Source: Streptomyces sp. R44 (GTDB lineage Bacteria > Actinomycetota > Actinomycetes > Streptomycetales > Streptomycetaceae). Taken from it: a stretch of DNA of 64,000 bases. The stretch is taken from contig NZ_CP163444.1 of NCBI RefSeq assembly GCF_041053105.1, positions 8,154,501-8,218,500 on the forward strand, in the 5' to 3' direction. Numbering within the stretch: the stretch's first letter is position 1; each line of letters opens with the position of its first letter. The notes beneath the pieces are model-generated. The model did not search any database and was not told the DNA's origin. It saw nothing but the letters and a program-made list of their open reading frames with translations. A program made the position numbers and the translations under genes. This document shows positions 23,684-40,376 of this stretch, piece after piece.

Positions 23684-25084
23684 TCAGATCATCACGTGCT
23701 TGGGCCGGGTGTAGTCGAGGAGGCCGGCGAGGGACAGGTCGCTGCCGTAGCCGGAGTGTTTGACCCCGCCGTGCGGCATTTCGGAGACCGTGGTGCCGTG
23801 GGTGTTCACCCACACGATCCCGGTGTGCAGGGCCCTGGTCGCGCGCATCGCCCGGTCGTGGTCCCTGGTCCATACGCTCGCGGCGAGTCCGAAGCGGACG
23901 TCGTCGGCGAGGCGCAGGGCCTCGGTCTCGTCGGTGAAGGGCTGCACGGTCACGACGGGGCCGAAGATCTCCTCCTGGACGATCTCGTCGTCCTGGCGTA
24001 CCCCGGCGACGACGGTGGGGTCGTGGAAGAAGCCGGGCCGCGCGGGCCGCGTGCCGCCCGCCACGATCCGAGCGTGGCCGGGCAGCCGGTCGAGCAGGGC
24101 GCGGACCGAGGCCAGCTGGGCGGCGTTGTTGAGCGGGCCGAGGTCGGTGCCGGGGTGCAGGGCGCGGGCGGCGCCGGCGAGGGCGTCCAGGAAGGCGTCG
24201 TGGACGCGGGCGTGGACCAGGAAGCGGGTGGGGGCGGTGCAGTCCTGACCGGCGTTGGAGAAGGCGACCTGGGCCAGGGCGGCGGCGGTGGCGGCGACGT
24301 CGACGTCGTCGTGGACGATCACGGGCGCGTTGCCGCCCAGTTCGAGGTGGAGCCGCTTCAGCCCGGTCGCGGCCGCGGCGGCGATCTCCTGCCCGGCACG
24401 GACACTGCCGGTGAGCGCGATCAGGGCGACGGCGGGGTGGGCGGTGAGGGCGCGGCCGGTGTCGCGGTCGCCGCAGACGACGTTCAGTACGCCCGGAGGC
24501 AGGTGGGGGGCCGCGATCCGGGCGAGCAGCACCGATGAGGAGGGGGTGGTGTCGGCGGGTTTGAGGACCGTGGTGTTGCCGGCGGCGAGGGCCGGTGCGA
24601 TCTTCCACGCGGCCATCATGAGGGGGTAGTTCCAGGGTGTGATCTGGGCGCAGACGCCGACCGGTTCGCGGCGCAGCAGGGAGGTGCGGCCCTCGGTGTA
24701 CTCCGCCGCGGCGGCCCCCGGGAGGGTGCGGGCGGCCCCGGCGAAGTAGCGGAAGACGTCGGCGATCGCGGGGAGCTCCTCCGTGCGGAACTGCGCCGAG
24801 GGCTTCCCCGTGTCGGCGGTCTCCGCGGCCGTCAGCTCGTCCGCGTGCGCCTCGACGGCGTCGGCGACGGCGAGCAGCGCCCGCTGCCGGTGGGCCGGGG
24901 TGGTGGCCGACCAGGGACCGTAGGCGGCCGCCGCGGCCGCGCAGGCGGCGTCGGTGTCGGCGCGGCCGGAGCGTGGGGCGCGGCCGTGCACGCGCCCGGT
25001 GGCGGGGTCGACCAGCTCGGTGGTCGCGCCCGTGGCGGCGGCCCGGTCCTCGCCGCCGATGTGGTTCAGCAGACCGTCAGCCAC
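23684..25084 (-). CDS. Aldehyde dehydrogenase (aminobutyraldehyde/betaine aldehyde type)
   Basis: A 466-residue NAD(P)-dependent aldehyde dehydrogenase. The GTG start overlaps the amine oxidase stop by 8 bases. Motifs: QITPWNYPLMMA near residue 140, the catalytic Glu in LELGGNAPVIV, the catalytic Cys in NAGQDCTAPTR, and EEIFGPVVTVQPF. The QDC context is that of gamma-aminobutyraldehyde and betaine aldehyde dehydrogenases. It would oxidise the aldehyde formed by the adjacent flavin amine oxidase to the acid. It is the last gene of the leftward polyamine-transport operon. Confidence 0.9.
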   Translation of the reverse strand: MADGLLNHIGGEDRAAATGATTELVDPATGRVHGRAPRSGRADTDAACAAAAAAYGPWSATTPAHRQRALLAVADAVEAHADELTAAETADTGKPSAQFRTEELPAIADVFRYFAGAARTLPGAAAAEYTEGRTSLLRREPVGVCAQITPWNYPLMMAAWKIAPALAAGNTTVLKPADTTPSSSVLLARIAAPHLPPGVLNVVCGDRDTGRALTAHPAVALIALTGSVRAGQEIAAAAATGLKRLHLELGGNAPVIVHDDVDVAATAAALAQVAFSNAGQDCTAPTRFLVHARVHDAFLDALAGAARALHPGTDLGPLNNAAQLASVRALLDRLPGHARIVAGGTRPARPGFFHDPTVVAGVRQDDEIVQEEIFGPVVTVQPFTDETEALRLADDVRFGLAASVWTRDHDRAMRATRALHTGIVWVNTHGTTVSEMPHGGVKHSGYGSDLSLAGLLDYTRPKHVMI

Positions 25085-26393
25085 GGCGCAGGGCCTCCTT
25101 CGCGGCGGCGCGCCCGGTACGGACGGCGCCCTCCATGTAGCCGGCCACCCACTGGTCGGATCCGCAGACGTAGAAGGGCGGTTCATGGGTGCCGTGACGG
25201 GGGCCGACGGCCATGACGTCGCCCGGAGCCCATTGCGTGACGTACCCCTGGGTCCAGGGGTCGGTGCCCCACAGGCGCAGGTACGTGGCGCGTGGCCGGT
25301 GGGCCTCGTCGCCGTACAACCGGGCGACCTCGGCGAGGAGTTCACGCGTCCGCAGGTGGGCGGGGGTGCCGAGCAGGACGCCGTACCTCTCGGGCGGGAC
25401 GAGGGCGGACAGGACGCCCTCGCTCTGCGGCCAGGTGCTGCCGAGCACTCCCTCGCACTCGGACAGACCGCTGAGCCCCCGGTCGCGCCAGAACGGGCGG
25501 TCGTAGGCGGCGACGAACTTCGCGGCAAGGGCGTGCCGCTGGTGGTGCAGCGAGGCCAGCCGCTCCTCAGTGACGCCGGTGACGGCGAGCGAGCGCAGCG
25601 GGCCCGCGGGCAGGGCGCTGACGACGGCGGTCGCGGTGAGGGTCTCGCCGCCCGCGAGGCGCACCGAGCAGCCGCCGGAGCGGCGGACCGCGAGCGCCTC
25701 GACGGGCGCGCCGGCACGGATCCTGCCGTCGAGCCCCGCGGCCATCCGCAGGGCCACGGTCGCCGAGCCCTCGGCCACCCGCAGGCCCTCCCAGGCCTCG
25801 TACTCGTAGTGGCCGACGCCGGGGACGGCGGCGTGCTTGCGGAGGGCGGCGAGCAGCGAGGTGCGCTCGGACGAGCCGTCGGCGAGCGCGAGCCGGCCGA
25901 TCTCCCAGAGCCGTACGACGGCCGGGCTCGCCCCCTCGTCGCGCAGCCAGCCGGCCACGGACGACCGGTCGAGGGCGGTGGCCTGCGGGTGGGACCAGGG
26001 GGCGTCCGGGTCGACGGTCGCGGCCAGCGCGGCGAAGGCCGCGGTGACCTTGCGGTGGCAGGCGTCGTCACCGGGACCGAACCAGTGCGGCGGGTCGCCG
26101 GCGCCGACCCCTTCGGGCGTGGCGCGGGCGAGCTCGCCGGGCTCGGCGACGTAGCTGGGGACGAGGGAGAGACCGAGTTCGGCGACGAGGGCCGTGTACG
26201 CGGTGTGCGCCGAGCCGACGACCTCCCCGCCGAGCTGGACGAGGCGGCCGTCGGGCAGCGCGGTCTGCTCGACGCGGCCGCCGACCCGGTCGCGCGCCTC
26301 GACGACGAGGACGTCGGCCCCGCCCGCGGCCAGATCGCGGGCGGCGGCGAGCCCGGCGAGTCCGGCGCCGAGCACGATGACATCGTGGTTCAT
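25077..26393 (-). CDS. FAD-dependent amine oxidase (putrescine/monoamine oxidase-like)
   Basis: A 438-residue flavin amine oxidase. The FAD-binding Rossmann motif is at the N-terminus (VIVLGAGLAGLAAARDLAAG) followed by EARDRVGGRV. The C-terminal FAD motif WVAGYMEGAVRTGRAAA is intact. No signal peptide is present, so it acts in the cytoplasm. It should oxidise an imported primary or secondary amine to an aldehyde with peroxide release. Gene order ABC importer, amine oxidase, aldehyde dehydrogenase supports a catabolic route from a polyamine or related amine to an amino acid or acid. Confidence 0.9.
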   Translation of the reverse strand: MNHDVIVLGAGLAGLAAARDLAAGGADVLVVEARDRVGGRVEQTALPDGRLVQLGGEVVGSAHTAYTALVAELGLSLVPSYVAEPGELARATPEGVGAGDPPHWFGPGDDACHRKVTAAFAALAATVDPDAPWSHPQATALDRSSVAGWLRDEGASPAVVRLWEIGRLALADGSSERTSLLAALRKHAAVPGVGHYEYEAWEGLRVAEGSATVALRMAAGLDGRIRAGAPVEALAVRRSGGCSVRLAGGETLTATAVVSALPAGPLRSLAVTGVTEERLASLHHQRHALAAKFVAAYDRPFWRDRGLSGLSECEGVLGSTWPQSEGVLSALVPPERYGVLLGTPAHLRTRELLAEVARLYGDEAHRPRATYLRLWGTDPWTQGYVTQWAPGDVMAVGPRHGTHEPPFYVCGSDQWVAGYMEGAVRTGRAAAKEALRRG

Positions 26394-26418
26394 GGGTGTT
26401 CCTCCGATGGGGCCGTCG

Positions 26419-27552
26419 TCAGTCCAGGACCAGGCAGTGCTCGGGCCGCCAGCCGAGCTCGACCTCCTCGCCGCCGCTCCAGCGGTCCTCCCTGCGGGAG
26501 CGGGCGGTGTTCTGCTCCAGGACGTGCACGGTGACGCCGGGGGCCAGTTCGATGAGGTACGTGGTGGTGGGGCCGGAGTAGACGGTCTCCCGGACGACGC
26601 CCGTGACCCGGGCCATGCCGGGCTCGAAGTCGGACAGCCAGATCTTCTCCGGGCGCAGCGAGAGGCTGACCCGGCTGCCGTCGGCCATGCCGGGGCGGTC
26701 GCCGACGGGGAGCGCGGGGCCCTGGTCGAGCAGCACCCGGCCGGCGCGGTAGGTACCGGGGACCAGGTTGGAGGTCCCGAGGAACGAGGCGGTGAAGCTG
26801 CTGGTGGGGCGCTCGTACACGTCCTCCGGAGTCCCGCACTGTTCGATGCGCCCCTCGTTCATGACGGCGAGGCGGTCCGACATGGTCAGGGCCTCGTCCT
26901 GGTCGTGGGTGACGAACAGGAAGGTGATGCCCACCTCGCGCTGGATCTGCTTGAGCTCGACCTGCATACGGCGCCGGAGCTTCAGGTCGAGGGCCGCCAG
27001 GGGCTCGTCGAGCAACAGCACCTGCGGACGGTTGACCAGGGCGCGGGCGAGGGCGACGCGCTGGCGCTGGCCGCCGGAGAGGGTGGGCGGTCTGCGGCCC
27101 GCCAGGTCGCCGAGCTGCACGAGGTCGAGCATGTCGGCGACCCGGCGGCGGATCTCGGGGCGGGCGACGCCCTTGCGCTTGAGGCCGAAGGCCACGTTGT
27201 CGGCGAGGGACAGGTGGTCGAAGAGGGCATAGCTCTGGAAGACGGTGTTGACGTTGCGCCGGTGGGGCGGGAGGCCCGTCACCTCCTCCCCGTCGAGCAG
27301 GACGCTGCCCTCGGTGGGGTCGGCGAAGCCGCCGATCATGCGCAGCAAGGTGGTCTTGCCGCAGCCGGAGGGACCGAGCAGGGAGAAGAACTCGCCGGGG
27401 GCGATGTCGAGGTTGATGTCGCGGACGGCGTACGAGGCGGAGCCGCCGGGGTAGCGCTTGCCGACCCGGTCGAGCCGGACGGCGGGGTGCGGGAGCACGG
27501 CTGCCGACCGCGGGGATCGCGCGGGCGCGGGTTGCGAGGTCATGGCGTTCAC
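26419..27552 (-). CDS. potA: Polyamine-type ABC transporter ATP-binding protein
   Basis: A 377-residue importer ATPase. Walker A is GPSGCGKTTLL, the signature LSGGQRQR, Walker B VLLLDEPLAALD, with a C-terminal TOBE-like regulatory domain from about residue 285. The GTG start overlaps the permease stop as GTGA; an ATG lies 9 bases inside. The presence of a dedicated ATPase contrasts with the two sugar importers in the first 13 kb, which have none. Confidence 0.93.
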   Translation of the reverse strand: MNAMTSQPAPARSPRSAAVLPHPAVRLDRVGKRYPGGSASYAVRDINLDIAPGEFFSLLGPSGCGKTTLLRMIGGFADPTEGSVLLDGEEVTGLPPHRRNVNTVFQSYALFDHLSLADNVAFGLKRKGVARPEIRRRVADMLDLVQLGDLAGRRPPTLSGGQRQRVALARALVNRPQVLLLDEPLAALDLKLRRRMQVELKQIQREVGITFLFVTHDQDEALTMSDRLAVMNEGRIEQCGTPEDVYERPTSSFTASFLGTSNLVPGTYRAGRVLLDQGPALPVGDRPGMADGSRVSLSLRPEKIWLSDFEPGMARVTGVVRETVYSGPTTTYLIELAPGVTVHVLEQNTARSRREDRWSGGEEVELGWRPEHCLVLD

Positions 27553-28385
27553 TCTCCGGAGAGCAGGTCGAGGCCGCCGCGCCGGCCGAACAGGCGCGGG
27601 ATGGCGAGGGCGAGGGCGATGAGTCCGACGGAGCCGGCCAGCATCAGCGTGCCGACGGCGTTGATGGTGGGCTGGACGCCGAAGCGGATCGCCGAGTAGA
27701 TCCGGACCGACAGGGGCTGCGGATCGACGCCGGTGGTGAAGTAGGCGAGGACGAAGTCGTCGAAGACCAGGGCGAAGACGAGGACGGCGGAGGCCAGGAT
27801 GCTGGGCAGCAGCGCGGGCAGCGTCACCAGGCGTACGGCCTGCCGGCGGGTGGCCCCGAGGTCCATGGCCGCCTCCTCGATCTCCGGGTTGAGGGCGGCG
27901 ACGCGGGAGCGCAGGATCACCGTCACGTAGGAGATGGAGAAGGTGATCTCGGCGAGCATCACCGTCGTCGTGGACAGGGTGATGCCGAGGCCCTTGAACA
28001 GCAGCATCGCGGCGACGCCGGTGACGATCTCCGGGGTGATGAGCGGGACGAGCATCACCAGGCCGGCGAAGGAGCCGAGCCGGTTGCGGCCGCGGACCAG
28101 GCCGAGCGCGAGGGCGACGCCGAGGACCACCGAGCCGGCCATGGCGACGAGGGAGACCCGCAGGCTCATGCCGAGCGAGTTCAGCAGCACGTCGTCGCGG
28201 AGGAACGCCCCGTACCAGCGCAGGCTGACACCGTCGAAGACGGTCAGGGACTTCTGCGAGTTGAAGGAGTAGAGGACGACGACGCCGATGGGGACGTAGA
28301 GCAGCGCGAAGAAGACGGCGGTGACGGCGAGGGCGAACCGGGGACGGCGCTCGGCGCCGCGGCGGCGCCCGCGGGCGGCCCTCAT
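27549..28385 (-). CDS. potC: Polyamine-type ABC transporter permease (PotC type)
   Basis: A 278-residue inner-membrane permease with six spans, the first at FALAVTAVFFALLYVPIGVV, which is typical of PotC with its YSFNSQKS loop. The EAA loop reads IEEAAMDLGATRRQAVRLV. ATGA overlap with the preceding permease and GTGA overlap with the ATPase gene indicate tight coupling. Confidence 0.92.
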   Translation of the reverse strand: MRAARGRRRGAERRPRFALAVTAVFFALLYVPIGVVVLYSFNSQKSLTVFDGVSLRWYGAFLRDDVLLNSLGMSLRVSLVAMAGSVVLGVALALGLVRGRNRLGSFAGLVMLVPLITPEIVTGVAAMLLFKGLGITLSTTTVMLAEITFSISYVTVILRSRVAALNPEIEEAAMDLGATRRQAVRLVTLPALLPSILASAVLVFALVFDDFVLAYFTTGVDPQPLSVRIYSAIRFGVQPTINAVGTLMLAGSVGLIALALAIPRLFGRRGGLDLLSGE

Positions 28386-29272
28386 CGGACCGCCTCCGCC
28401 TCGTCCTTGCGGGTGCGCCGCAGGTAGCCGAGCATGCCGAGGAGGAGGACGGCCATCAGCAGCATGGTGAGGGCGGAGCCGAGCGGCCAGTTCTGGCCCT
28501 GGAAGAACTTGTCCTGGATCAGGTTGCCGATCATGATCTGGTCGGGGCCTCCCATGAGCTGCACACTGACGAAGTCGCCCATGGCGGGCAGCAGGACGAG
28601 GACACAGCCGGCGGCCGCGCCCTGCCGGGTGGCCGGGACGGTGACGAACAGGAAGGTCCGCAGCGGACCGGCGTACAGGTCGCGGCCCGCCTCGATGAGC
28701 GAGGTGTCCATGCGCTCCATCGCCGCGTAGAGCGGGATGATCATGAAGACGACGAAGCCGTAGACGAGACCGGCGACGACGCCCGTGCCGGTCTGCAGGA
28801 TCCGGGTCCCCCCGTCCGCGAGTCCGATCGCGCGCAGCGCCCTGAGCAGCGGTCCGTCGTCGGACAGGACGACGGACCAGCCGTACATCCGCACCAGGTA
28901 GTTGGCGAAGAACGGGACGACGATCGCCGCGATCAGCACGTTCTTGTACCGGCCGCCGCTGGTCGCGATGGCGTACGCGACGGGATAGGCGATCAGGAGA
29001 CAGACGGCGCAGGTGACCAGGGCGTAGCCCAGCGAACGCAGCAGGACCGTACGGTACGCGGGGTCGGCCAGAGCGGTGATGTTGTCGAGGACGAACCCGA
29101 AGCGCGGGTTGCCGAGCGGGTCCGTGGTGCCGAACGCGAGGGTGGCGACGAGGATCAGGGACGCGAGCAGGAAGACGGTCATCCAGAGCGTGCCGGGCAG
29201 CATCAGCCAGGTCCACAGGCGTTCCCGGGCCGCTTTTCCGGCGGCACGTGGGGGACGGGCGGTAGTGGCCAT
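28382..29272 (-). CDS. potB: Polyamine-type ABC transporter permease (PotB type)
   Basis: A 296-residue permease, partner of PotC. A basic N-terminus precedes the first span (LMLPGTLWMTVFLLASLILV). The EAA loop is visible as IEAGRDLYAGPLRTFLFVTV. It starts one base after the binding-protein stop, so the importer genes run in the order D, B, C, A. Confidence 0.92.
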   Translation of the reverse strand: MATTARPPRAAGKAARERLWTWLMLPGTLWMTVFLLASLILVATLAFGTTDPLGNPRFGFVLDNITALADPAYRTVLLRSLGYALVTCAVCLLIAYPVAYAIATSGGRYKNVLIAAIVVPFFANYLVRMYGWSVVLSDDGPLLRALRAIGLADGGTRILQTGTGVVAGLVYGFVVFMIIPLYAAMERMDTSLIEAGRDLYAGPLRTFLFVTVPATRQGAAAGCVLVLLPAMGDFVSVQLMGGPDQIMIGNLIQDKFFQGQNWPLGSALTMLLMAVLLLGMLGYLRRTRKDEAEAVR

Positions 29273-29273
29273 G

Positions 29274-30404
29274 TCAGCCCGCCTTCACATCGGTCCAGGC
29301 GGCGTCGCGGGCCTTCTCGCCCGCCGCGGTGCCGTTGCGGAAGAACATGTCGTCCCTGAGGTCGGCCGCGGTCACGTGGCACTGCGGGAAGGGCTCCACG
29401 AGCGCGGCGTAGGTGTCCTCCGAGCCGCGCACCGGCATCGGGTAGCCGATGTACTCGATGTTCCGCTTCACGTTCTCGGGCCGGAGCATGTAGTCGATGA
29501 AGAGCATGGCGGTGCCGGGGTGCGGTGCGTCGGCGGGGATGGCGTAGCAGTCGGAGTTGACCGGGGCCCCCTCGCGGGCGGTCTCGAAGCCGAACACGGA
29601 CGGGTCCTTCGCCTGGGCGAGCATCGCGGCCATGTCCCCGCTCCACGCCTGGGTCATGTCGGCGTTGCCGTTGAGCAGGTTGTTGTAGCTGTCACTGGAG
29701 AAGCCGCGCAGCCGGGGGCGCAGGGAGCGCAGGGTGTCGGTGACGCGGTCGAGGTCGTCCGGCCGGTCGGTGGTGAGCGGCAGGCCGTGCTCGAGCGCGC
29801 CGATGGCCAGCACCTCGTCGCGGTCGTCGAGGACGAAGACCTTGCCCTTGGCGTGGTCGTTCCACAGGTCGTCCCAGGAGCCGGTGAGGTCGCCGAGCCG
29901 GTCCCGGCGCCAGCCGATGCCGGTCTTGTACATGGTGAAGGGGACGGTGTGTGCGGAGCGGGGGTCGTACCAGGGGTCGGCGAAGTAGTCGTACGCGCCG
30001 AACACGGCCTCGGCGTTCCGCAGGCGCCCGTGGTCGATGCGGCGCAGCCGGCCCCCTCGGGAGAGGCGCTCGGCCCACTTCGCCGTGGGGAAGACGATGT
30101 CGTAGCGGTTGCCGGCGTTGAGTTTGGCGGCCATGCCTTCCATGGAGTCGTAGTTCGACTGGACGACTTTGACTCCGTACTCCTTGGAGAAGCCCGCGAA
30201 GACGGCCGGGTCGACGAAGTCGGCCCAGTTGAAGTAGACGAGGTCGCCGTCGACCTTGACGTCGACGGGGGCGTCGGCGGCCGCCTGGCCGGCGGCGTCG
30301 GGGGCGGAGGAGAATCCGCAGCCTGCCGCCGTCAGACCGAGGGTGGTGGCGGCGCCGGCGCGGAGCAGCGAGCGGCGGGACAGGGAAGGTGCCTCGGGGG
30401 ACAT
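29274..30404 (-). CDS. potD: Polyamine-type substrate-binding lipoprotein
   Basis: A 376-residue PotD/PotF-family binding protein. The N-terminus has a twin-arginine motif (SRRSLLRAG) and a lipobox TAAGC with Cys at about residue 29, so it is probably Tat-exported and lipidated. The mature protein opens with LVYFNWADFVDP, the usual PotD entry, and has the YDIVFPTA and WSGDMAAML motifs. It should bind spermidine, putrescine or a related cation. The start has an 80-base gap from the Rieske gene, which is probably in the same transcript. Confidence 0.92.
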   Translation of the reverse strand: MSPEAPSLSRRSLLRAGAATTLGLTAAGCGFSSAPDAAGQAAADAPVDVKVDGDLVYFNWADFVDPAVFAGFSKEYGVKVVQSNYDSMEGMAAKLNAGNRYDIVFPTAKWAERLSRGGRLRRIDHGRLRNAEAVFGAYDYFADPWYDPRSAHTVPFTMYKTGIGWRRDRLGDLTGSWDDLWNDHAKGKVFVLDDRDEVLAIGALEHGLPLTTDRPDDLDRVTDTLRSLRPRLRGFSSDSYNNLLNGNADMTQAWSGDMAAMLAQAKDPSVFGFETAREGAPVNSDCYAIPADAPHPGTAMLFIDYMLRPENVKRNIEYIGYPMPVRGSEDTYAALVEPFPQCHVTAADLRDDMFFRNGTAAGEKARDAAWTDVKAG

Positions 30405-30483
30405 GGGGTCCTCTCCGTAGGGCCGCTGGGGGACGGCGGGCGGGCGGTACGGCGGTGCGGAGGTACGGGGGCGGTCGTGTCGT

Positions 30484-31731: not shown

Positions 31732-31829
31732 CGGTGACTCCTCGTGCCGCGGGGCGGCGATCGGTGTCGGGCGTCGATGTCGTGCGAACCGGATGCGGGC
31801 AGCGGGTCGGGGCGGGCGCCGGGACCTGG

Positions 31830-31845
31830 CTGACCGATGGGACAG
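31830..31845. promoter_or_regulatory. Third, imperfect copy of the TetR-type operator
   Basis: CTGACCGATGGGACAG matches 14 of 16 bases of the perfect palindromes 57 and 89 bases downstream. It lies inside the leader of the leftward operon. Confidence 0.5.
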
Positions 31846-31886
31846 CCAGCGTGGTGGCTGAATTCCGCCGGGTCAAGACTTGTACG

Positions 31887-31934: not shown

Positions 31935-32148
31935 TAAACGTGTTTCTGTCGCTGCTTTGCCGTCGCGCCGCTTCTGACCTGCGCATTCGCTCGACATGCC
32001 GGTGATAGCGACACCCGGTTCCTACGCCGGAAGCAGCCCGGCGTGCCCTGGCACCCGCCCCGACACGCACTTCCCTCGCTCTCCTCCGCGGCGGCCCCGC
32101 GCACGCCCGCACCCCCGCCCGCACCCCCCTTCCCCTCCGGAGGCACGC

Positions 32149-32658: not shown

Positions 32659-34043
32659 CCCGCAGCCTCCCTCCGACTCCGACTCACCCCCTGACCGCCA
32701 TCCGTCACCCGACCACCCCCGCGCCGGGCTCCGTGCTGGGCGCGACGCCGTACGCGACGGAGAACGCCGAGGCGTACGAGGCCACCGGTGGCTACGCCGC
32801 CGCCGTCACCCCCGACGAGCTGCTGCACCACCTCGACGCCTGCGGCCTGCGCGGCCGCGGCGGCGCCGGATTCCCGGCCGCCGTCAAGCTGCGCGCCGTC
32901 CGCGAGCACGGGCGACGCGGCCGGGGGAGCGGGACCCGCGGCGAGCGCGCCGCAGGTGCCGGCACCCCGGTCGTGGTGGCCAACGGGGAAGAGGGCGAGC
33001 CCGGTTCGGTCAAGGACCGCTGGCTGCTGCGGGCCCGCCCGCACCTGGTCCTCGACGGCCTCGTCCACGCCGCCGCGGTCACCGGCGCCGCACACGGCTA
33101 CGTCTACCTCTCCGACCCGGAGGCGGCCCGCCGCGTCCGCGAGGCCCTCACCGAACGCGTACCGCCGCTGCCGATCCAGGTCGTCGAGACCGCCGCCGGC
33201 TATGTCGCCGGCGAGGAGACCGCGGTCGTCCGCCGGATCGACGGCGGGCCGGCCCTGCCGACCGCCAAGCCTCCCCGCCCCTTCGAGCGGGGAGTCGGGG
33301 GCGCGCCGACCCTGGTCGCCAACGTCGAGACCCTCGCCCGGATCGCGCTCGTCGCCGCCCGGCCCGACCTGCGCGAGCCGATCGCGCGCTCCACCCTGAT
33401 CACCCTCTCGGGCGGCGGCGTCGTACCGGAACTCACCGAGGTGCCGTACGGGGTCCCCCTGCGCGCCCTTGCCGCCGCCCACGGCACCCCGGCCCCGGCC
33501 GGCGCCCTGATGGGCGGTCTCTTCGGCGGGCTCGTCGACGCACGCGCCCTGGACCTGCCCCTCGAACCCGGCGCACTCGCCGCCGCGGGCACGGCGCTCG
33601 GCTGCGGAGCGATCCGCTTCCTCACCGCCGACGTCTGCCCGGTGGGCGCCGCCGCCGAGGCGGTCGGTCACCTCGCGGCCGAGAGCGCACGGCAGTGCGG
33701 CGTCTGCGTGTCGGGCACGGCCGCGATCAGCGACGCTCTGGACCGCCTCACCTCAGGATCCGCCGAACCCGACACCGCCGAACGGCTGCACCGATGGGCG
33801 CGAGGACTGCCCGGGCGCGGTGCGTGCGGACTCCTCGACGCCGCCGCCGGCCTCGCCGGAAGCCTGCTGCGCGCCTTCCCGGCACAGGTCCGGGCCCATC
33901 TCGACGGGCCCTGCCCGGTATGCCGCGCCCATGCCCCCGGGCGGGGCCCGCACCGGCTGGTCGTGCCGGTGCCGGCTGTCGGCACACCCTCCCCGACCCC
34001 ACCCGCCGAGCCCATGGCCGCCGTACTGGAAGGAACGCCATGA
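32655..34043 (+). CDS. NuoF-like flavoprotein (NADH dehydrogenase 51-kDa family)
   Basis: A 462-residue homologue of the complex I subunit that takes electrons from NADH. Flavin and NAD motifs are intact: GRGGAGFP near residue 75, ANGEEGEPGSVKDR near 115, and AGEETAVVRRIDG near 190. The usual iron-sulfur motif SCGxCxPC is altered to QCGVCVSG, so one of the four cluster cysteines is absent, while a further Cys in RGACG and a CPVC pair near the end could substitute. No other complex I genes are here. With the next gene, a ferredoxin, it may form a NADH-to-ferredoxin chain for the Rieske oxygenase; this is inference. Confidence 0.8.
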   Translation: MTRSLPPTPTHPLTAIRHPTTPAPGSVLGATPYATENAEAYEATGGYAAAVTPDELLHHLDACGLRGRGGAGFPAAVKLRAVREHGRRGRGSGTRGERAAGAGTPVVVANGEEGEPGSVKDRWLLRARPHLVLDGLVHAAAVTGAAHGYVYLSDPEAARRVREALTERVPPLPIQVVETAAGYVAGEETAVVRRIDGGPALPTAKPPRPFERGVGGAPTLVANVETLARIALVAARPDLREPIARSTLITLSGGGVVPELTEVPYGVPLRALAAAHGTPAPAGALMGGLFGGLVDARALDLPLEPGALAAAGTALGCGAIRFLTADVCPVGAAAEAVGHLAAESARQCGVCVSGTAAISDALDRLTSGSAEPDTAERLHRWARGLPGRGACGLLDAAAGLAGSLLRAFPAQVRAHLDGPCPVCRAHAPGRGPHRLVVPVPAVGTPSPTPPAEPMAAVLEGTP

Positions 34044-34231
34044 AACTGCTGCTGGACGCCACGCTGTGCAACGGCTACGGCCTCTGCCAGGAGAACACCC
34101 CCGAACTCGTCGAGCTCGACGAGTGGGGCTACGCGAAGGTCGTCGTCGTCGACGTGCCGCCCGCCGCCGAGGACCGGGCCCGCGCCTGCGTGGAGAGCTG
34201 CCCCAACTCCGCCCTGCGCGTGGAGGGATGA
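34040..34231 (+). CDS. Small ferredoxin (3Fe-4S or 4Fe-4S type)
   Basis: A 63-residue ferredoxin of the actinobacterial single-cluster type. Ligands: Cys residues in LCNGYGLC (C-x5-C) and the final Cys-Pro in VESCPNSAL; another Cys stands four residues before that last one. The spacing is that of the 3Fe-4S ferredoxins that serve cytochromes P450 and oxygenases. It overlaps the NuoF-like gene as ATGA, which argues that the two proteins exchange electrons. Confidence 0.88.
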   Translation: MKLLLDATLCNGYGLCQENTPELVELDEWGYAKVVVVDVPPAAEDRARACVESCPNSALRVEG

Positions 34232-34232
34232 G

Positions 34233-36302
34233 ATGACGCGTGATCTGACCTCGCTCTTCGACCCCGTGTCCGTCGCCGTGGTCGGCGCCAGCGACGACCC
34301 GGCGAAGTACGGCCACGCGGTGGCCGCCCAGGCCCTCCGCGCGCCCGACCGCCGACCCGTCCACCTGGTGAACCGGCGCGGCGGCACCGTACTCGGCCGG
34401 ACGGCCGCCACCTCCCTCGGCGACATCGGCGAGCCGGTCGACCTGGTGGTGATCTCCGTACCCGGCACCGGCTTCGAGGCGGCCGTCGACGACGCCCTCG
34501 CCTGCGGGGCGAAGGCGATCGTCGCCATCACGGCCGGTTTCGCGGAGGCCGGCCCCGCCGGTCTCGCCCGCCAGCGAGCCGTCGCCGAGCGGGTCCGGGC
34601 CGCCGGAGCCGTGCTCGTCGGCCCCAACTGCCTGGGCATCGCGGACAACACCACCGAGCTGTACCTGGCCTCGGACCGGTTCGCGCCCGGCCGGGTCGCC
34701 CTGCTCAGCCAGAGCGGCAACCTGGCCCTCGAACTCCAGCTGCGCGGCGCCCCGCACGGCCTCGGCTTCTCCCGTTTCGTCTCGCTCGGCAACCAGGCCG
34801 ACGTCACCCTCGTCGACCTCGTCGAGGACTGCGCCCGCCACGAGCCCACCTCCGTGATCGCCGTGTACGCCGAGGACTTCGGCGACGGCCGGGCCTTCGC
34901 CCGCGCCGCCGCCGAGGCCGGCAAGCCCGTGGTCCTCCTCACCGCCGGCCGCGGCGCCGCCTCCGCCCGCAGCGCCCGGTCGCACACGGGGGCACTGACC
35001 ACCTCGGCCGACGTGGTGGCCGCGGCCTGCCGCGACGCGGGTGTCGAACTCGTCCGCACTCCACGGGAGATGACCGTGGTGCTCGCCGCCCTGGCCGGCG
35101 GACGGCGCACGGCCGGCCGGCGGACCGCGGTCCTCACGGACGGCGGCGGCCACGGCGCGGTCGCCGCCGACGCCGCCGAGGACGCCGGGCTCGACGTGCC
35201 CGAGCTCGGCGCCCCGGCCCAGGACCGGCTGCGGAGCGTGCTGTGGGAGCAGTCCGCCGTCCGCAACCCGGTCGACCTCGCCGGCATGGGGGAGCAGCGC
35301 CCCCTCTCGTACGCCGACACCGTCCGCGAACTGCTGGCCGCCGACGAGGTCGACGCCGTCCTGATGACGGGCTACTTCGGCGGGTACGCCGCCGCCGAAG
35401 GCGGCCTGGGCGGCGGGCCGGCCGGCGGCTCGGTCCTCGCCGAGGGCGAGCAGCGGGCCGCGAAGGAGATCGCCGGACACCTCGCCGCCACACCGAAGCC
35501 GCTGGTCGTGCAGTCCCTGTACCCGGAGTCGCCCAGCTGCCGGGCGCTCGCGGAGGCCGGGGTCCCGGTGTTCGCCGCCACCGAGGACGCGGCCCGCGCC
35601 CTCGCCGCGCTGACCGGCCGCGCGGCGGGCGCTCCGGCCGGGGTGGCCGCGCCGCCGCCCGCCGCGACACCCCTGGGGGACCCCTCGTACCACGGTGTAC
35701 GGGCGCTGCTCGCCGAGGCCGGAGTGCCCTTCCCGCCGGCCCGGGAGGTCACCGACGAGGCCGGGCTGCTCTCCGCCGCCGCCGCGTTCGAGGGGCCGTA
35801 CGTCCTGAAGGCCCTCCACGTCCTGCACAAGTCCGACGCCGGCGGGGTGGCGCTGCGGCTCCCCGACCGGGACGCGCTGCTTGCCGCGTACCGGCGGATG
35901 CACGCCCGGCTCGGTGCCCCCTCGTACTCGGTCGAGGCCATGGCCGACCTCTCGGACGGCGTCGAACTGATCGTCGGCGTCCAACGCGACCCCCGGTTCG
36001 GTCCGGTGGCGATGATCGGCCTCGGCGGGGTGCTCACCGAGACCCTGCGCGACGTGGCCTTCGCCCTCGCTCCCGTGACCGCCGGATCCGCCGAGCAGCT
36101 GCTGCGGGGGCTGCGGACCGCCGCCCTGCTCGACGGCGTGCGCGGCCGTCCCGCCGTGGACGTGACGGCGGCCGCCGCCGTCATCGCCCGCGTCACCGAG
36201 GTCGCCGCGGCCCACCCGGAGATCGCCGAGCTGGAGGTCAACCCGCTCCTCGTACGCCCGGACGGCGCCGTCGCGCTGGACGCGCGCGCCGTCCTCGGCT
36301 GA
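34233..36302 (+). CDS. Acyl-CoA synthetase, ADP-forming acetate-CoA ligase family
   Basis: A 689-residue single-chain enzyme. Order: CoA-binding Rossmann domain (about 8-130, VAVVGASDDPAKYG), CoA-ligase flavodoxin-like domains (about 150-440, with LLSQSGN and the RSHTGAL region), and an ATP-grasp domain (about 470-689, YVLKALHVLHKSDAGGVALR). GGAGG is 6 bases before the ATG. It should attach CoA to a carboxylic acid using ATP. In this operon it would activate the acid made by the oxidation steps before acyl-CoA dehydrogenation. Related proteins of this architecture include pimeloyl-CoA and acetyl-CoA synthetases; the acid is unknown. Confidence 0.88.
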   Translation: MTRDLTSLFDPVSVAVVGASDDPAKYGHAVAAQALRAPDRRPVHLVNRRGGTVLGRTAATSLGDIGEPVDLVVISVPGTGFEAAVDDALACGAKAIVAITAGFAEAGPAGLARQRAVAERVRAAGAVLVGPNCLGIADNTTELYLASDRFAPGRVALLSQSGNLALELQLRGAPHGLGFSRFVSLGNQADVTLVDLVEDCARHEPTSVIAVYAEDFGDGRAFARAAAEAGKPVVLLTAGRGAASARSARSHTGALTTSADVVAAACRDAGVELVRTPREMTVVLAALAGGRRTAGRRTAVLTDGGGHGAVAADAAEDAGLDVPELGAPAQDRLRSVLWEQSAVRNPVDLAGMGEQRPLSYADTVRELLAADEVDAVLMTGYFGGYAAAEGGLGGGPAGGSVLAEGEQRAAKEIAGHLAATPKPLVVQSLYPESPSCRALAEAGVPVFAATEDAARALAALTGRAAGAPAGVAAPPPAATPLGDPSYHGVRALLAEAGVPFPPAREVTDEAGLLSAAAAFEGPYVLKALHVLHKSDAGGVALRLPDRDALLAAYRRMHARLGAPSYSVEAMADLSDGVELIVGVQRDPRFGPVAMIGLGGVLTETLRDVAFALAPVTAGSAEQLLRGLRTAALLDGVRGRPAVDVTAAAAVIARVTEVAAAHPEIAELEVNPLLVRPDGAVALDARAVLG

Positions 36303-36354
36303 CGTCCGCCCCCCACCCCCGCACACCCTTCCCGCCCCGGAGGAGACCCGCACC

Positions 36355-37524
36355 ATGGACTTCCGCTACACCCCCGAGCAGACCGAGCTCAAGGCGCGCG
36401 CCGCGGCCTACACCCGGCTCCTGATGCGGTACGAGGAGCAGTCCGAGGAAGCGGGCGGCCCGCTGCCGGCCGACACGGTGCGGGAGCTGACCCGGGCCGC
36501 GATCGACGCCGGCGTCTACGCCATCAACATGCCCGCCGAGTGGGGCGGCGCCGGACTCTCCCTGCTCGACCAGGTGATCGTCGAGGAGGAGTTCGGCAAG
36601 GTCACCAACTGCCTGTGGGACATTCCCTGGCGGCCCGCCAACGTCCTGGCGTACGGCACCGAGGCACAGCGCGAGAAGTACCTGCTGCCGGTGATCCGCG
36701 GCGAGCGCTTCGACGCCTTCGCCGTCACCGAGCCCGGGGCCGGATCCGACCCCGGATCGGGCACGAGCACCGCGACCCGCACGGCGGGCGGCTGGGTGCT
36801 GAACGGCGAGAAGTGGTTCGTCACCTGCGGCGACATCGCCGACTTCCTGCTTGTGCAGGCCGATGCCGGGCCGGACCGGGCGGCGACGCTGTTCCTCGTC
36901 GACAAGCAGGCCCCCGGTGTCGCGATGACCCGGGTGCCCCGCTTCATGCACTCCGCGGTGAACGGGCACCCCGAGTTCCGGTTCACCGACGTCTTCGTAC
37001 CCGACGAGGACGTGCTCGGCGGCGTCGGCAACGGCTACGAGCTGACGAAGGAGTGGTTCACCGACGAGCGGCTGATGATCGCCGCCCGGACCGTCGGCGC
37101 CGCCGAGAGGGCCCTGGAACTGGCCCGTGACTGGGCCGTCGGACGCCGTCAGTTCGGCTCCCGCATCGCCGACTTCCAGCTGATCCAGGGGATGCTCGCC
37201 GACTGCGCCGTCGACATCGCCGTCAACCGCGCCTACACCCACCAGATCGCCTGGGAGGCCGACCAGCCGCAGACCGACCGCAAGACCCTGCACGCCAAGG
37301 CCTCCACGGCGAAGCTCGCGGCGAGCGAGGCCGCCGGCCGGGTGGTCGACCGGTGCCTGCAGATCTTCGGCGGGCGAGGCTACGACCGCTCGTACCCGGT
37401 CGAGCGGATGTACCGCGAGCTGCGCGTCGACCGGATCTGGGAGGGCACCTCGGAGATCCAGCGGCTGATCATCGCCAACGAGCTGATCAAGCGCGGCACC
37501 GGGGCGCTGGCCCTGCCGCGCTGA
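36355..37524 (+). CDS. Acyl-CoA dehydrogenase, first of a tandem pair
   Basis: A 389-residue flavoenzyme of the acyl-CoA dehydrogenase family. FAD/substrate motifs YGTEAQREKYLLPVIRGE and AVTEPGAGSDPGS are present, and the C-terminal part has RQFGSRIADFQLIQGMLAD and QIFGGRGYDRSYPVER. The position where many members carry the catalytic Glu reads RIWEGTSEIQRLI. It is about 390 residues, the normal size. It introduces a double bond next to the thioester. It is a close sister of the following gene, and the two may form a mixed oligomer. Confidence 0.9.
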   Translation: MDFRYTPEQTELKARAAAYTRLLMRYEEQSEEAGGPLPADTVRELTRAAIDAGVYAINMPAEWGGAGLSLLDQVIVEEEFGKVTNCLWDIPWRPANVLAYGTEAQREKYLLPVIRGERFDAFAVTEPGAGSDPGSGTSTATRTAGGWVLNGEKWFVTCGDIADFLLVQADAGPDRAATLFLVDKQAPGVAMTRVPRFMHSAVNGHPEFRFTDVFVPDEDVLGGVGNGYELTKEWFTDERLMIAARTVGAAERALELARDWAVGRRQFGSRIADFQLIQGMLADCAVDIAVNRAYTHQIAWEADQPQTDRKTLHAKASTAKLAASEAAGRVVDRCLQIFGGRGYDRSYPVERMYRELRVDRIWEGTSEIQRLIIANELIKRGTGALALPR

Positions 37525-37588
37525 GCCCACTGCCCTGCCCCGACACCCCTCCCACACCCCCACCCACACCCGAGAGGACCAGCATCCC

Positions 37589-38761
37589 ATGGACTTCCGT
37601 CTCACCGCACGCCAGCAGGAGCTCAAGGAATCGGCCCGGCACCTCACCGAGTTCATCATGAAGTACGAGCTCGACTGCGAGGAGAACAACGGTCTGCCGC
37701 CGAGGGCCCACGCCGAGATCCGCGACGCCGTCCTCGACAGCGGCCTCCAGGCCGTCAACATGCCGGCCGAGTGGGGCGGTGCCGGACTCACCGTCCCCGA
37801 GCAGGTCGTCGTCCAGGAGGAACTGGGCCGGCTCACCGGCGCCCTGTGGGACATGGTGTGGCGGCCGGCCAACGCCCTCGCGCACTGCACGCCCGAGCAG
37901 CGCGAACGGTACCTCGTGCCCGTGATCCACGGGCGCCGGCGCGACTGCTACGCGGTCAGCGAGCCCGAGGCCGGCTCCGACCCGCAGAACCTGCGCACCA
38001 CCGCGACCCGGACCGCCGACGGCTGGGTGCTGAACGGCGAGAAGTGGTTCGTCACGGTGGGCGACCACGCCGACTTCATGATCGTGCTCGCCGCCGCGGG
38101 GGAGGAGCGGGCGCCGACGCTGTTCCTCGTGGACAAGGACACCCCGGGCATCGAGATGACCCGGGTGCCCCGCTGGATGCACACCTTCGTCTACGAACAC
38201 CCCGAGTTCACCTTCACCGACGTACGCCTGCCCGAGGACGCGGTGCTCGGCGGCGTCGGCAACGGCTACGACCTCACCCGCTCCTGGTTCTCCGAGGAGC
38301 GGCTGATGATCGCCGCCCGCACGATCGGGGCGGCCGAGAGGGCCCTGGAGCTCGCCCGTGACTGGGCCGTCGGACGCCGTCAGTTCGGCTCCCGCATCGC
38401 CGACTTCCAGCTGATCCAGGGGATGCTCGCCGACTCGGCCGTCGACATCGCCGTCAACCGCGCGTACACCCACCAGGTCGCCTGGGAGGTCGGCGAGGGC
38501 CGGACCGACCGCAGGACCCTGCACGCGAAGGCCGCGATCGCCAAGCTCGCGGCGAGCGAGGCGTCCGGCCGGGTGGTCGACCGGTGCCTGCAGATCTTCG
38601 GCGGGCGCGGCTACGACCGCTCGTACCCCGTCGAGCGTCTCTACCGGGAGCTGCGCGTCGACCGGATCTGGGAGGGCACCTCCGAGATCCAGCGGCTCAT
38701 CGTCGCGGGCGAACTCGTCAAGCGCGGGACGGGTGTCCTGCAACTGCCGGTGACCCCGTGA
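37589..38761 (+). CDS. Acyl-CoA dehydrogenase, second of a tandem pair
   Basis: A 390-residue sister of the preceding gene. It keeps the same motifs (AVSEPEAGSDPQN, RQFGSRIADFQLIQGMLAD, QIFGGRGYDRSYPVER, RIWEGTSEIQRLI). An 82-base stretch (38354-38435) is identical at the DNA level to 37123-37204, although flanking parts have diverged; this suggests gene conversion or recent duplication. The pair may act on successive intermediates or as unlike subunits. The stop overlaps the next gene as GTGA. Confidence 0.9.
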   Translation: MDFRLTARQQELKESARHLTEFIMKYELDCEENNGLPPRAHAEIRDAVLDSGLQAVNMPAEWGGAGLTVPEQVVVQEELGRLTGALWDMVWRPANALAHCTPEQRERYLVPVIHGRRRDCYAVSEPEAGSDPQNLRTTATRTADGWVLNGEKWFVTVGDHADFMIVLAAAGEERAPTLFLVDKDTPGIEMTRVPRWMHTFVYEHPEFTFTDVRLPEDAVLGGVGNGYDLTRSWFSEERLMIAARTIGAAERALELARDWAVGRRQFGSRIADFQLIQGMLADSAVDIAVNRAYTHQVAWEVGEGRTDRRTLHAKAAIAKLAASEASGRVVDRCLQIFGGRGYDRSYPVERLYRELRVDRIWEGTSEIQRLIVAGELVKRGTGVLQLPVTP

Positions 38762-39648
38762 GCGACCTCGCCCGGGTGGGGATCGTGGGCTGCGGGCTCA
38801 TGGGCTCCGGCATCGCCGAGGTCTGCGCCCGCGCCGGACGCGACGTCGTGGTGGTGGAGACCGGACCGGCGGCCGCCGAGGCCGGACTGCGGCGGATCAC
38901 CCGCTCGCTGGAACGGGCCGCGGCGGCCGGCCGGCTGACCGCGGCCGAACATCGCGCCGCGGCGGGCCGGATCGCGGTGACCACCGACATGGCGCGGCTC
39001 GCCGACCGCGATCTGGTCGTCGAGGCGGTGGCGGAGGACGAGCGGGCGAAGACCGAGGTCTTCGCCCGGCTCGACGCCGTCGTGGAGCGCCGGGACGCCG
39101 TCCTGGCGACCAACACCTCGTCCCTGCCCGTCATCAGGCTGGCGGCCGCCACCTCGCGGCCGTCCCAGGTCGTCGGCCTGCACTTCTTCAACCCGGTGCC
39201 GCGGCTGCCGCTGGTGGAACTGGTTCCCTCGCTGCTCACCGGAGAGGACACCGTCCGGCGCGCGAGGGCCTTCGCCGCCGACGTCCTCGGCAAGGAGGTC
39301 GTGCACGCCCGGGACCGGGCGGGGTTCGTCGTCAACGCCCTGCTCGTGCCGTACCTGCTGGCAGCGGTACGGATGGCCGAGTCCGGTGCGGCGTCGGCCG
39401 AGGACATCGACCGGGCCATGACCCTGGGCTGCGCCCATCCGCTCGGCCCGCTCGCCCTGGCCGACCTGATCGGTCTGGACACGGTGCGGGCCATCGCCCG
39501 GTCGATGTACGCGGAGTACCGCGAGCCGCAGTACGCCCCGCCGCCGCTGCTGGCCCGGATGGTGGAAGCGGGGCGGCTCGGCAGGAAGGCGGGCCGGGGC
39601 TTCCACACGTACCCGGGGCGCCCGACCGGGCAGGATGGGCAGGGATGA
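38758..39648 (+). CDS. 3-Hydroxyacyl-CoA dehydrogenase (3-hydroxybutyryl-CoA type)
   Basis: A 296-residue NAD(P)-dependent enzyme. The nucleotide-binding motif is at the N-terminus (VGIVGCGLMGSGIAEVCARAG). The catalytic His region is GLHFFNPVPRLPLVELV and the C-terminal helical domain includes DIDRAMTLGCAHPLGPLALAD. It would oxidise a 3-hydroxyacyl-CoA, following the dehydrogenases. No enoyl-CoA hydratase or thiolase gene lies in this operon, so those steps must come from elsewhere or not be needed. Confidence 0.92.
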   Translation: MSDLARVGIVGCGLMGSGIAEVCARAGRDVVVVETGPAAAEAGLRRITRSLERAAAAGRLTAAEHRAAAGRIAVTTDMARLADRDLVVEAVAEDERAKTEVFARLDAVVERRDAVLATNTSSLPVIRLAAATSRPSQVVGLHFFNPVPRLPLVELVPSLLTGEDTVRRARAFAADVLGKEVVHARDRAGFVVNALLVPYLLAAVRMAESGAASAEDIDRAMTLGCAHPLGPLALADLIGLDTVRAIARSMYAEYREPQYAPPPLLARMVEAGRLGRKAGRGFHTYPGRPTGQDGQG

Positions 39649-39685
39649 CAGTCCGGGACGGAGACCGAAAGCGGGAGATGCCGAC

Positions 39686-40297
39686 GTGACCAAGGCGGAG
39701 CGCGCACTCGAGACACGGGAGCGAATCCTCAGGGCCGCGTGCGAGGTGATCGCGGACATCGGGTTCGAGAACGTCAGCATGCGCAAGGTCGCCGAGCACG
39801 CGGGGGTGTCGAAGGCGCTGCTGCACTACCACTTCGACACCCGCGAGAAGCTCTTCGCCGAGGCGATGACGCACTCGTTCGCCCAGACCGGCACGGACCT
39901 CGACGGCGGCGACGCCGACCTGCCGGCCGGCGTCCTGCTCGCGCGCATCGTGCGCACCATGCTGCCCACGGACGAGGAGCTGCGCCAGGACTGGAAACTG
40001 TGGCAGGAGCTGTGGGTGCGCGCACAACGCGACGACGCGGCCCGGCAGCTCGCCGTCGACCTGTACGACCAGCTCCACGCCTGGGTCGGCGGCGCGGTGG
40101 AACGCGGCGTCGCGTCGGGCGAGTTCGCCCCCTGCGACGTCGCCGCGATCAGCACCCTGATCCTGGCGCTCTGTGACGGCCTGGGCATTCGCGTGATGCT
40201 CGCCGACCCCCATGTCGACCTGTCCACGGCCCGGTCGACGATCTGGTCGGCCATCGCCCCGTCGCTGGGCATCCCTCCCGCCTTCCCCGAGGCCTGA
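39686..40297 (+). CDS. TetR family regulator of the divergent catabolic operons
   Basis: A 203-residue TetR protein. The GTG at 39686 is preceded by GGGAG 8 bases away; an upstream ATG at 39635 would overlap the previous gene and lacks a ribosome site. The helix-turn-helix is MRKVAEHAGVSKALLHYHF around residues 33-51. The ligand domain is about 150 residues. As last gene of the rightward operon it would be induced along with it, fitting an autoregulated repressor that binds the tandem palindromes at 31887-31934. A CoA ester or the imported amine could be the inducer. Confidence 0.85.
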   Translation: MTKAERALETRERILRAACEVIADIGFENVSMRKVAEHAGVSKALLHYHFDTREKLFAEAMTHSFAQTGTDLDGGDADLPAGVLLARIVRTMLPTDEELRQDWKLWQELWVRAQRDDAARQLAVDLYDQLHAWVGGAVERGVASGEFAPCDVAAISTLILALCDGLGIRVMLADPHVDLSTARSTIWSAIAPSLGIPPAFPEA

Positions 40298-40376
40298 CCC
40301 GGCGGCACCCGGGAAGCGGCAGGCCGACCGGCCGGTGGTACGGTCCCGGGCATCCGCCGGCCGAGGCTCCGTGAGC

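Follow-up and report, generated by a model that had tools for sequence, protein, structure and literature searches.

A two-operon gene island of Streptomyces sp. R44 with predicted roles in the import and aerobic oxidation of a cationic amine

The window analysed here is a stretch of 64,000 nucleotides from Streptomyces sp. R44, covering positions 8,154,501–8,218,500 of a single-contig genome of 8,892,027 bases. Positions 23684–40297 of this window hold an island of two divergent, tightly packed operons with 15 genes, seven leftward and eight rightward, whose reading frames were checked. We consider it probable that the island serves to take up a cationic amine and convert it by aerobic oxidation to coenzyme A (CoA) esters under a single TetR-family regulator. 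Judged from the predicted enzymes, an N-alkylated or quaternary diamine or polyamine appears to be the likeliest substrate class. Below, we describe the conservation of the two arms, the control region between them, and the residues and protein families that point to this kind of substrate.

Gene content and layout

The leftward arm encodes a Rieske oxygenase, a PotDBCA-type importer, an amine oxidase and an aldehyde dehydrogenase. The rightward arm encodes U1 (a small protein described below), a NuoF-like flavoprotein, a ferredoxin, an ADP-forming CoA ligase, two acyl-CoA dehydrogenases (ACAD1 and ACAD2), a 3-hydroxybutyryl-CoA dehydrogenase (HCDH) and the TetR regulator. All 15 genes of the original prediction, which had been named from the letters and reading frames, were borne out in position and identity by frame checks and by domain and model searches:

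23684–25084, minus strand: aldehyde dehydrogenase, aminobutyraldehyde dehydrogenase subfamily (NCBIfam NF010000; nearest PDB chain 6c43)
25077–26393, minus strand: flavin amine oxidase, closest to putrescine oxidases among solved structures (Pfam Amino_oxidase; PDB)
26419–27552, minus strand: PotA-like ABC ATPase (TIGR01187, 368.1 bits against a cut-off of 355.6)
27549–28385, minus strand: PotC-like permease (PotI and PotC models top, far under cut-off)
28382–29272, minus strand: PotB-like permease (PotB model top, under cut-off)
29274–30404, minus strand: PotD-like binding lipoprotein (PDB matches PotD and PotF)
30484–31731, minus strand: CntA-like Rieske oxygenase with the group Va markers Y219 and E221 (best profile CntA; Pfam Rieske and Ring_hydroxyl_A)
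31830–31845: predicted operator 1, two mismatches, adjoining a leftward -10-like element that lies 17 bases from TTGACC (by eye)
31872–31882: conserved element GTCAAGACTTG, located between operators 1 and 2
31887–31902: predicted operator 2, perfect 16-base palindrome CTGACCGATCGGTCAG, lying between the two elements of a rightward TTGTAC-18-TAGTTT pair (by eye)
31919–31934: predicted operator 3, perfect palindrome CTGACCGATCGGTCAG
32149–32658, plus strand: U1, small all-helical protein without family match (AlphaFold2 model)
32655–34043, plus strand: NuoF-like flavoprotein with FMN and Fe-S domains (Pfam Complex1_51K and NADH_4Fe-4S)
34040–34231, plus strand: single-cluster ferredoxin, 63 amino acids (Pfam Fer4_15)
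34233–36302, plus strand: ADP-forming acyl-CoA ligase, one chain (Pfam CoA_binding_2, Succ_CoA_lig and ATP-grasp_5; PDB 8wzu)
36355–37524, plus strand: ACAD1 (Pfam; PDB 1ukw)
37589–38761, plus strand: ACAD2 (Pfam)
38758–39648, plus strand: HCDH (NCBIfam NF005875)
39635–40297, plus strand: TetR regulator (Pfam TetR_N and TetR_C_6), recognition helix varying with the operator

Seven adjacent gene pairs overlap and two lie 1 base apart; the remaining gaps within the arms measure 25–79 bases.

Conservation of the two arms

A relative of the NuoF-like protein is encoded in 312 stretches of the genome collection, of which the best 80 were kept, and a cluster was called where at least four genes scored above set identity thresholds. 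Thirty-eight of these best 80 stretches carry the cluster, 33 of them uncut on both sides, and the closest NuoF relatives come from Streptomyces, including S. avidinii, S. virginiae and S. xanthophaeus. Both arms (the Rieske gene together with complete PotDBCA) are present in 32 of the 33 uncut streptomycete loci. The genes for the amine oxidase, aldehyde dehydrogenase, NuoF-like protein, ferredoxin, CoA ligase, ACAD1, ACAD2 and TetR occur in all 33; HCDH scores above threshold in 26, and no more than 32 have an intact U1. The other 42 of the best 80 NuoF relatives (47–52%; Mycobacterium, Nocardia and others) fell below the four-gene threshold and were set aside.

A survey that started from the Rieske gene gave the same picture. 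Among 199 sampled Streptomyces genomes the gene is present in 16, the window's own counted, and the island is thus accessory in the genus. Fifteen non-self stretches were fetched; all 15 genes are matched in each of the 13 uncut loci, and the other two are cut by contig ends. Five loci are common to this survey and the NuoF survey. A class-wide Rieske profile survey was positive in 11 of 394 genomes and a phylum sample in 4 of 296, own genome counted in each. All four additional streptomycete loci of the class survey match the full set of 15 genes, with HCDH split into two parts in two loci, so that both arms are present in 17 of 17 streptomycete loci found through the Rieske gene (13 from the genus and 4 from the class). 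Streptacidiphilus loci and one Streptomyces locus (L019) differ in layout, lacking HCDH and carrying TetR beside the Rieske gene on the leftward arm. Weaker Rieske relatives in three genomes of the class survey (G601, G558 and G506) have only a partial TetR-like match beside them, and in one case also a PotA-like piece. Such weaker Rieske relatives (33–36%) adjoining a partial TetR-like match, with little else of the island, are those of loci L125, L126 and L127.

A version of the cluster outside the streptomycetes occurs in another family, in genome G764, whose genus is probably Mycobacterium because a PPE-family gene adjoins its cluster. In this genus, 5 of 198 genomes (G764 and four others) carry the cluster in the same divergent layout, with changes. 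In all five loci, Rieske, TetR and amine oxidase genes face U1, ferredoxin, CoA ligase, ACAD1 and ACAD2, at identities of 58–60% for the Rieske oxygenase, 48–50% for TetR, 65–68% for the amine oxidase, 39–43% for U1, 41–51% for the ferredoxin, 57–59% for the CoA ligase, 76–78% for ACAD1 and 65–68% for ACAD2. PotDBCA is present in four of the five. An aldehyde dehydrogenase is found in three, at just 40–41% identity, and one other contig stops at the amine oxidase gene. Three of the five versions also include a short-chain dehydrogenase/reductase and an enoyl-CoA hydratase. From the genes kept in both the streptomycete and the probable-Mycobacterium versions, the constant core is the Rieske oxygenase, TetR, amine oxidase, U1, ferredoxin, CoA ligase and the two ACADs. 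In one of these loci (L138), frames for a GntR-type regulator, a permease, an ABC ATPase and a flavoprotein lie past the aldehyde dehydrogenase gene; they were considered as a replacement transporter that might hint at the substrate and were rejected, no link being seen.

A more remote actinobacterial version (locus L107 of family f59, positions 4844–17146; Rieske 40%) holds a binding protein, PotBCA, TetR, the Rieske oxygenase, two CoA ligases, an enoyl-CoA hydratase and one ACAD. A related Rieske gene occurs in 2 of 16 genomes of this family, the second (G1028) being a 5.2-kb contig with the Rieske match only. The original prediction had treated the two operons as one system and named a neighbourhood survey as its check; across the NuoF, Rieske and probable-Mycobacterium surveys, the operons do form one conserved unit, at counts beyond what chance would give.

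The ends of the island, 23684 and 40297, look real because the flanking genes are not found at the relatives' loci. On the right, a glycerol-3-phosphate-dehydrogenase (GlpD)-like gene adjoins the island and has a 4-base overlap with its own TetR-like gene on the minus strand (40418–42591 together); both were rejected as island parts, with matches in 0 of the 38 NuoF-survey cluster loci (E ≤ 1e-5), which extend about 3.5 kb beyond TetR and leftward hardly as far as the next gene on that side. This left-hand neighbour, a peptidase family S58 gene at 21742–22899, was rejected likewise, with matches in 0 of 15 Streptomyces stretches (E ≤ 1e-3). The G+C content is 70–78% (2-kb steps) across 24001–44000, compared with 67–71% in the window's first 20 kb.

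Control region and TetR regulator

The exact 16-mer CTGACCGATCGGTCAG occurs twice in the control region and nowhere else in the 8,892,027 bases of the genome. With up to two mismatches it is found at six genome places, three in the control region and three elsewhere, and the same pattern reversed, as a control, occurs at one. At the equivalent position, relatives carry a palindrome-like site of one of two forms: the window's own or, in most other Streptomyces, CTGACTAATTAGTTAG or something close to it. The distance between operators 1 and 2, wherever the pair is seen, is 57 bases for either form. Three probable mycobacteria (L124, L137 and L140) have a CTAACTAATTAGTTTG-like sequence in the region, and a palindrome scan of the region gave none in L138 and L139.

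The operator form varies with the recognition helix of TetR. The helix SMRK...GVSK is found in all 10 rows whose palindrome is the exact CGATCG form and in none of the 36 others (the 46 rows include five loci twice). In those 36, the helix is RMRM...GVST in 28, RMRM...GVSS in 5 and a one-residue RMRM variant in 3, and the exact TAATTA site is present in 22. In L009 and L015, the site is nearer to the other operator form, with 5 and 3 mismatches. Agreement of this kind is what a true regulator–operator pair would give. The original prediction of one TetR for one control region agrees with both observations, namely operators that lie between the arms and that vary with the TetR recognition helix.

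All 11 rows that share the window's operator type have the GTCAAGACTTG element, and all 9 Streptomyces rows with the other type have GTCAAGRCTTG, the form in which it is conserved across both types in Streptomyces; the one probable-Mycobacterium row lacks it. It may represent two divergent -35 elements that overlap. The promoter scan gave a single terminator-like match (31886–31903), which is operator 2 itself. TetR is most likely a repressor, whose binding at the predicted operators would block both arms simultaneously. It fails the BetI choline-repressor model TIGR03384 (68.1 against a cut-off of 201.3).

Rieske oxygenase

In profile searches, the Rieske oxygenase is matched best by the carnitine monooxygenase CntA. 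According to PMC7948474, group V Rieske enzymes oxidise quaternary ammonium compounds; those of group Va bind the ammonium through a pi-cation contact with an aromatic residue at the CntA 203 position, and the bridging residue is E205. Y219 and E221 of the island enzyme correspond to CntA Y203 and E205 (the CntA number being the printed alignment index minus 20), and both are invariant in 8 of 8 aligned Rieske rows, including a relative of 39% identity. The enzyme therefore has the group V(a) markers, the aromatic residue at the CntA 203 position and the bridging glutamate, from which oxidation of a quaternary ammonium group is predicted. Of the six CntA residues besides Tyr203 that contact carnitine (Tyr225, Phe258, Asn270, Tyr295, Tyr315 and Phe319), Tyr225 alone is conserved (Y241). 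Phe258, at a gapped part of the alignment, cannot be placed, and Asn270 is replaced by Asp299 in 8 of 8 rows, an exchange that would favour a second cation over the carboxylate of carnitine. The enzyme fails the glycine betaine monooxygenase GbcA model NF058607 (130 bits against a cut-off of 670), and its structure model is poor, with a mean predicted local distance difference test (pLDDT) score of 55.3. Among the substrates named in the original prediction, betaines and N-alkylated polyamines fit the Rieske markers, whereas carnitine and gamma-butyrobetaine fit poorly, since the CntA contacts are mostly lost.

Importer, amine oxidase and aldehyde dehydrogenase

In the PotD-like lipoprotein, Cys29 is present in 8 of 8 aligned rows, and the lysine of a P[TS]AK[WY] segment in the seven streptomycete rows and not in L107. 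Numbered by alignment to E. coli PotD, it keeps Trp34, Asp168, Glu171, Trp229, Asp257 and Tyr293, while Tyr37 is replaced by Phe, Tyr85 by Lys and Trp255 by Asn. We take these E. coli PotD positions to be polyamine-contact residues, the acidic ones holding the polyamine nitrogens. The lysine points to a negative or polar ligand group and pulls slightly against a plain polyamine.

The amine oxidase has its best PDB matches among putrescine oxidases (3rha and 2yg3–2yg7) and is 28–34% identical to other near-full-length matches in the seven genomes searched. The residue presumed to set putrescine oxidase specificity is Glu324; the corresponding position adjoins an alignment gap. The aldehyde dehydrogenase passes NF010000 narrowly (618.9 bits against a cut-off of 615, run on 23684–25078) and fails the equivalog TIGR03374 (482.2 against 909.3); its nearest solved chain, 6c43, is a gamma-aminobutyraldehyde dehydrogenase. 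A putrescine-oxidase-like enzyme and an aminoaldehyde dehydrogenase together point to a substrate with a diamine-like skeleton.

Electron carriers, U1 and the CoA-ester arm

The NuoF-like protein fails the complex I NuoF model TIGR01959 (159.3 against 558.65), and no further nuo gene is found among the island's 15 genes. Three of the 42 NuoF relatives that had been set aside were inspected; outside Streptomyces, those in two loci (L023, 7012–11275, and L069, 8299–11212) adjoin an amidohydrolase-like frame, and L023 also has a Rieske-ferredoxin-like frame (both by eye). This hints at a possible role of such NuoF-like proteins in serving oxygenases.

U1 has no NCBIfam match at E ≤ 0.001 and no Pfam match at E ≤ 0.01. 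Its signature, W9-L-G-L-T-P and L125-I-G-L-P-G, is present in 24 of 24 aligned sequences. The AlphaFold2 model is all-helical and confident (mean pLDDT 82.8), and a Foldseek search with it against solved structures gave no match at E ≤ 0.001. Strong U1 matches (E ≤ 1.5e-46) occur in 9 of the 394 class genomes, namely the eight with a strong Rieske match and G751, whose contig has the match starting at base 223. One more match (E 9.4e-4), the tenth, is probably chance. U1 is, consequently, a cluster-specific helical protein. In the probable-Mycobacterium loci it adjoins the ferredoxin gene even where the NuoF gene is gone, and for this reason a role with the oxygenase and ferredoxin appears likelier than one with the NuoF-like protein.

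The best PDB match of the CoA ligase is the 4-hydroxybutyrate-CoA ligase 8wzu, followed by 9y43 and 7cm9 (214.5 bits). ACAD1 aligns to PDB 1ukw, including the WEGTSEIQ segment, the glutamate of which we take to be the catalytic residue. HCDH passes NF005875 (462.6 bits against a cut-off of 319, run on 38584–39648). The ACADs score 185.3 and 195.8 on the crotonobetainyl-CoA dehydrogenase model (cut-off 540); the acryloyl-CoA reductase model scores them higher, likewise far under its cut-off. CoA ligase, ACADs and HCDH point to beta-oxidation of an acid. The original prediction had seen a full route here, which was too much: Pfam and NCBIfam searches found no enoyl-CoA hydratase or thiolase among the 15 genes. 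A hydratase is present in L107 and in the three probable-Mycobacterium versions mentioned above.

Proposed route and alternatives

Gene content and the conserved partnership of the arms are consistent with the original view of amine catabolism, and the clues from the Rieske oxygenase, PotD, the two amine-handling oxidative enzymes and the CoA-ester arm, taken together, lead us to a cationic, diamine-like and probably N-alkylated substrate. PotDBCA would import a compound with at least two charged sites, because PotD keeps the acidic nitrogen-holding residues although Lys and Asn replace two aromatics. The Rieske oxygenase, fed from NAD(P)H through the NuoF-like protein and the ferredoxin and probably served by U1, would then hydroxylate a carbon beside the cationic nitrogen held by Tyr219, and splitting or opening of the product would give an aldehyde and a smaller amine. 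The putrescine-oxidase-like enzyme would oxidise the remaining amine to an aldehyde (oxygenase and oxidase may act in either order), from which the aminoaldehyde dehydrogenase would form an acid. The ADP-forming ligase would make its CoA ester, and the two ACADs and HCDH would begin beta-oxidation, with hydratase and thiolase coming from elsewhere. TetR would be released by the substrate or by a CoA-ester intermediate. In its specific form, a new pathway for a quaternary or N-alkylated polyamine, with a U1-assisted group Va oxygenase fed by the NuoF-like protein and ferredoxin and an amino acid product degraded as its CoA ester rather than transaminated, the proposal is a tentative one.

Breakdown of an ordinary polyamine (putrescine, cadaverine or spermidine) by an oxidase pathway to gamma-aminobutyrate (GABA) or 5-aminovalerate and on to a CoA ester, with the Rieske oxygenase acting on a side product, seems unlikely. 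It would explain the Pot importer, the putrescine-oxidase-like enzyme and an aldehyde dehydrogenase above the aminobutyraldehyde cut-off, yet no aminotransferase or GabD is encoded among the 15 genes, the Rieske gene matches, or nearly matches, the amine oxidase gene in constancy, L107 has the oxygenase without amine oxidase or aldehyde dehydrogenase, and PotD carries Lys and Asn at E. coli PotD Tyr85 and Trp255. Moreover, S. coelicolor reportedly gamma-glutamylates plain polyamines, direct putrescine oxidation being a predicted alternative (PMC8998196).

A carnitine or gamma-butyrobetaine route, in which a CntA-type oxygenase is joined to CoA activation, dehydrogenation and hydroxyacyl oxidation, is less probable still. 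The CntA best match, the pi-cation tyrosine, the bridging glutamate and the kept Tyr225 (Y241) agree with it, as do the scores of both ACADs with crotonobetainyl-CoA dehydrogenase, far under cut-off as they are; however, CntA Tyr295, Tyr315 and Phe319 are lost, Asn270 has become Asp299, the CoA ligase is of the ADP-forming kind, and these substrates should need no amine oxidase. The least probable of the three is removal of an N-alkyl group from a larger alkyl or aryl amine or alkaloid natural product, with the CoA part degrading the acyl remainder. In its favour, two ACADs and HCDH would suit a longer chain, L107 has two CoA ligases and a hydratase, and group Va includes the benzalkonium oxygenase OxyBAC (PMC7948474); a Pot-type importer, which suits small cations, and oxidative enzymes closest to those for diamines and aminoaldehydes speak against it.

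Several observations weigh against catabolism of a cationic amine by one TetR-controlled unit as proposed here. In the Rieske oxygenase, the loss of CntA Tyr295, Tyr315 and Phe319 is joined by replacement of a Cys-x-x-Cys pair by G222 and V225, which is not decisive since the pair is found only in some group V enzymes according to PMC10952381. As to regulation, 14 of the 36 rows without the CGATCG palindrome have a weaker operator or none found, the covariation of helix and operator may be a single evolutionary event, and a formal scan of the control region gave no sigma-70 consensus promoter, the promoter reading being by eye. The unit also varies in content. Streptomyces avidinii locus L005 is without the Rieske gene and PotDBCA, and only the U1 end is left; among the probable mycobacteria, L138 is without PotDBCA and L139 without an aldehyde dehydrogenase gene in its stretch. 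The NuoF gene is absent from all five probable-Mycobacterium clusters, so it is not essential beside the other genes and was rejected as an obligate island part; a NuoF relative of 51–53% lies elsewhere in all five genomes, which proves little because such relatives are common in the genus. The L107 stretch has no match to the amine oxidase, aldehyde dehydrogenase, U1, NuoF-like protein or ferredoxin. Since it has the Rieske, Pot, TetR and CoA ligase genes without those for amine and aldehyde oxidation, the latter part may be an add-on, or the substrate class may be broader.

In L005 itself, the amine oxidase gene lies directly beside the U1 remnant and NuoF (8617–11374), by natural deletion or an assembly fault.

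Relation to known systems and significance

The island Rieske oxygenase shares with CntA/CntB and group Va the Rieske fold, the bridging glutamate, the cation-binding aromatic residue at CntA 203 and Tyr225. It differs in being without the cysteine pair, in its other pocket residues and in being embedded among amine-oxidase and CoA-pathway genes; no CntB-type reductase is encoded among the 15 genes, which have the NuoF-like protein and single-cluster ferredoxin instead. The bacterial putrescine oxidase pathway that Foster is said to have described in 2013 reportedly has amine oxidase, aldehyde dehydrogenase and Pot importer in one operon, as here, whereas the island further has a CoA-ester arm and an oxygenase that comes with electron carriers of its own. 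Plant choline monooxygenase is a group Va Rieske enzyme that makes betaine, paired with betaine aldehyde dehydrogenase (BADH) and a separate ferredoxin. The island resembles that system in having a BADH/aminoaldehyde-type dehydrogenase and a separate ferredoxin, and differs in serving catabolism rather than betaine biosynthesis, if we read it correctly, and in its CoA arm. The island ligase has the three-domain single chain of DddX (7cm9), which also cleaves dimethylsulfoniopropionate-CoA, and of other ADP-forming acyl-CoA ligases, but is closer to 8wzu.

The glutamylpolyamine pathway of S. coelicolor (GlnA2 and GlnA3; PMC8998196) is likewise amine catabolism in the same genus. Unlike that pathway, the island has no glutamine-synthetase-like, PuuD-like or GabT-like gene, and domain and model searches found no gamma-glutamylpolyamine synthetase (Puu/GlnA3) among its 15 genes. 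Neither 'Rieske' nor 'acyl-CoA' appears in the main text of PMC8998196. No description of this gene combination was found in open-licence papers, which does not prove that none exists. The other enzymes all belong to known superfamilies; what looks new is U1, the Rieske subtype and the way the genes are combined.

If the proposal is true, one more quaternary-amine Rieske oxygenase would join the few characterised so far, and its electron chain would be a NuoF-like protein and a ferredoxin. U1 is a protein family whose genomic context is well defined. TetR and its operator would be usable as a reporter for the inducer and so give the substrate directly. That substrate would be an environmental amine for which we found no published pathway, consumed by streptomycetes and probably by mycobacteria.

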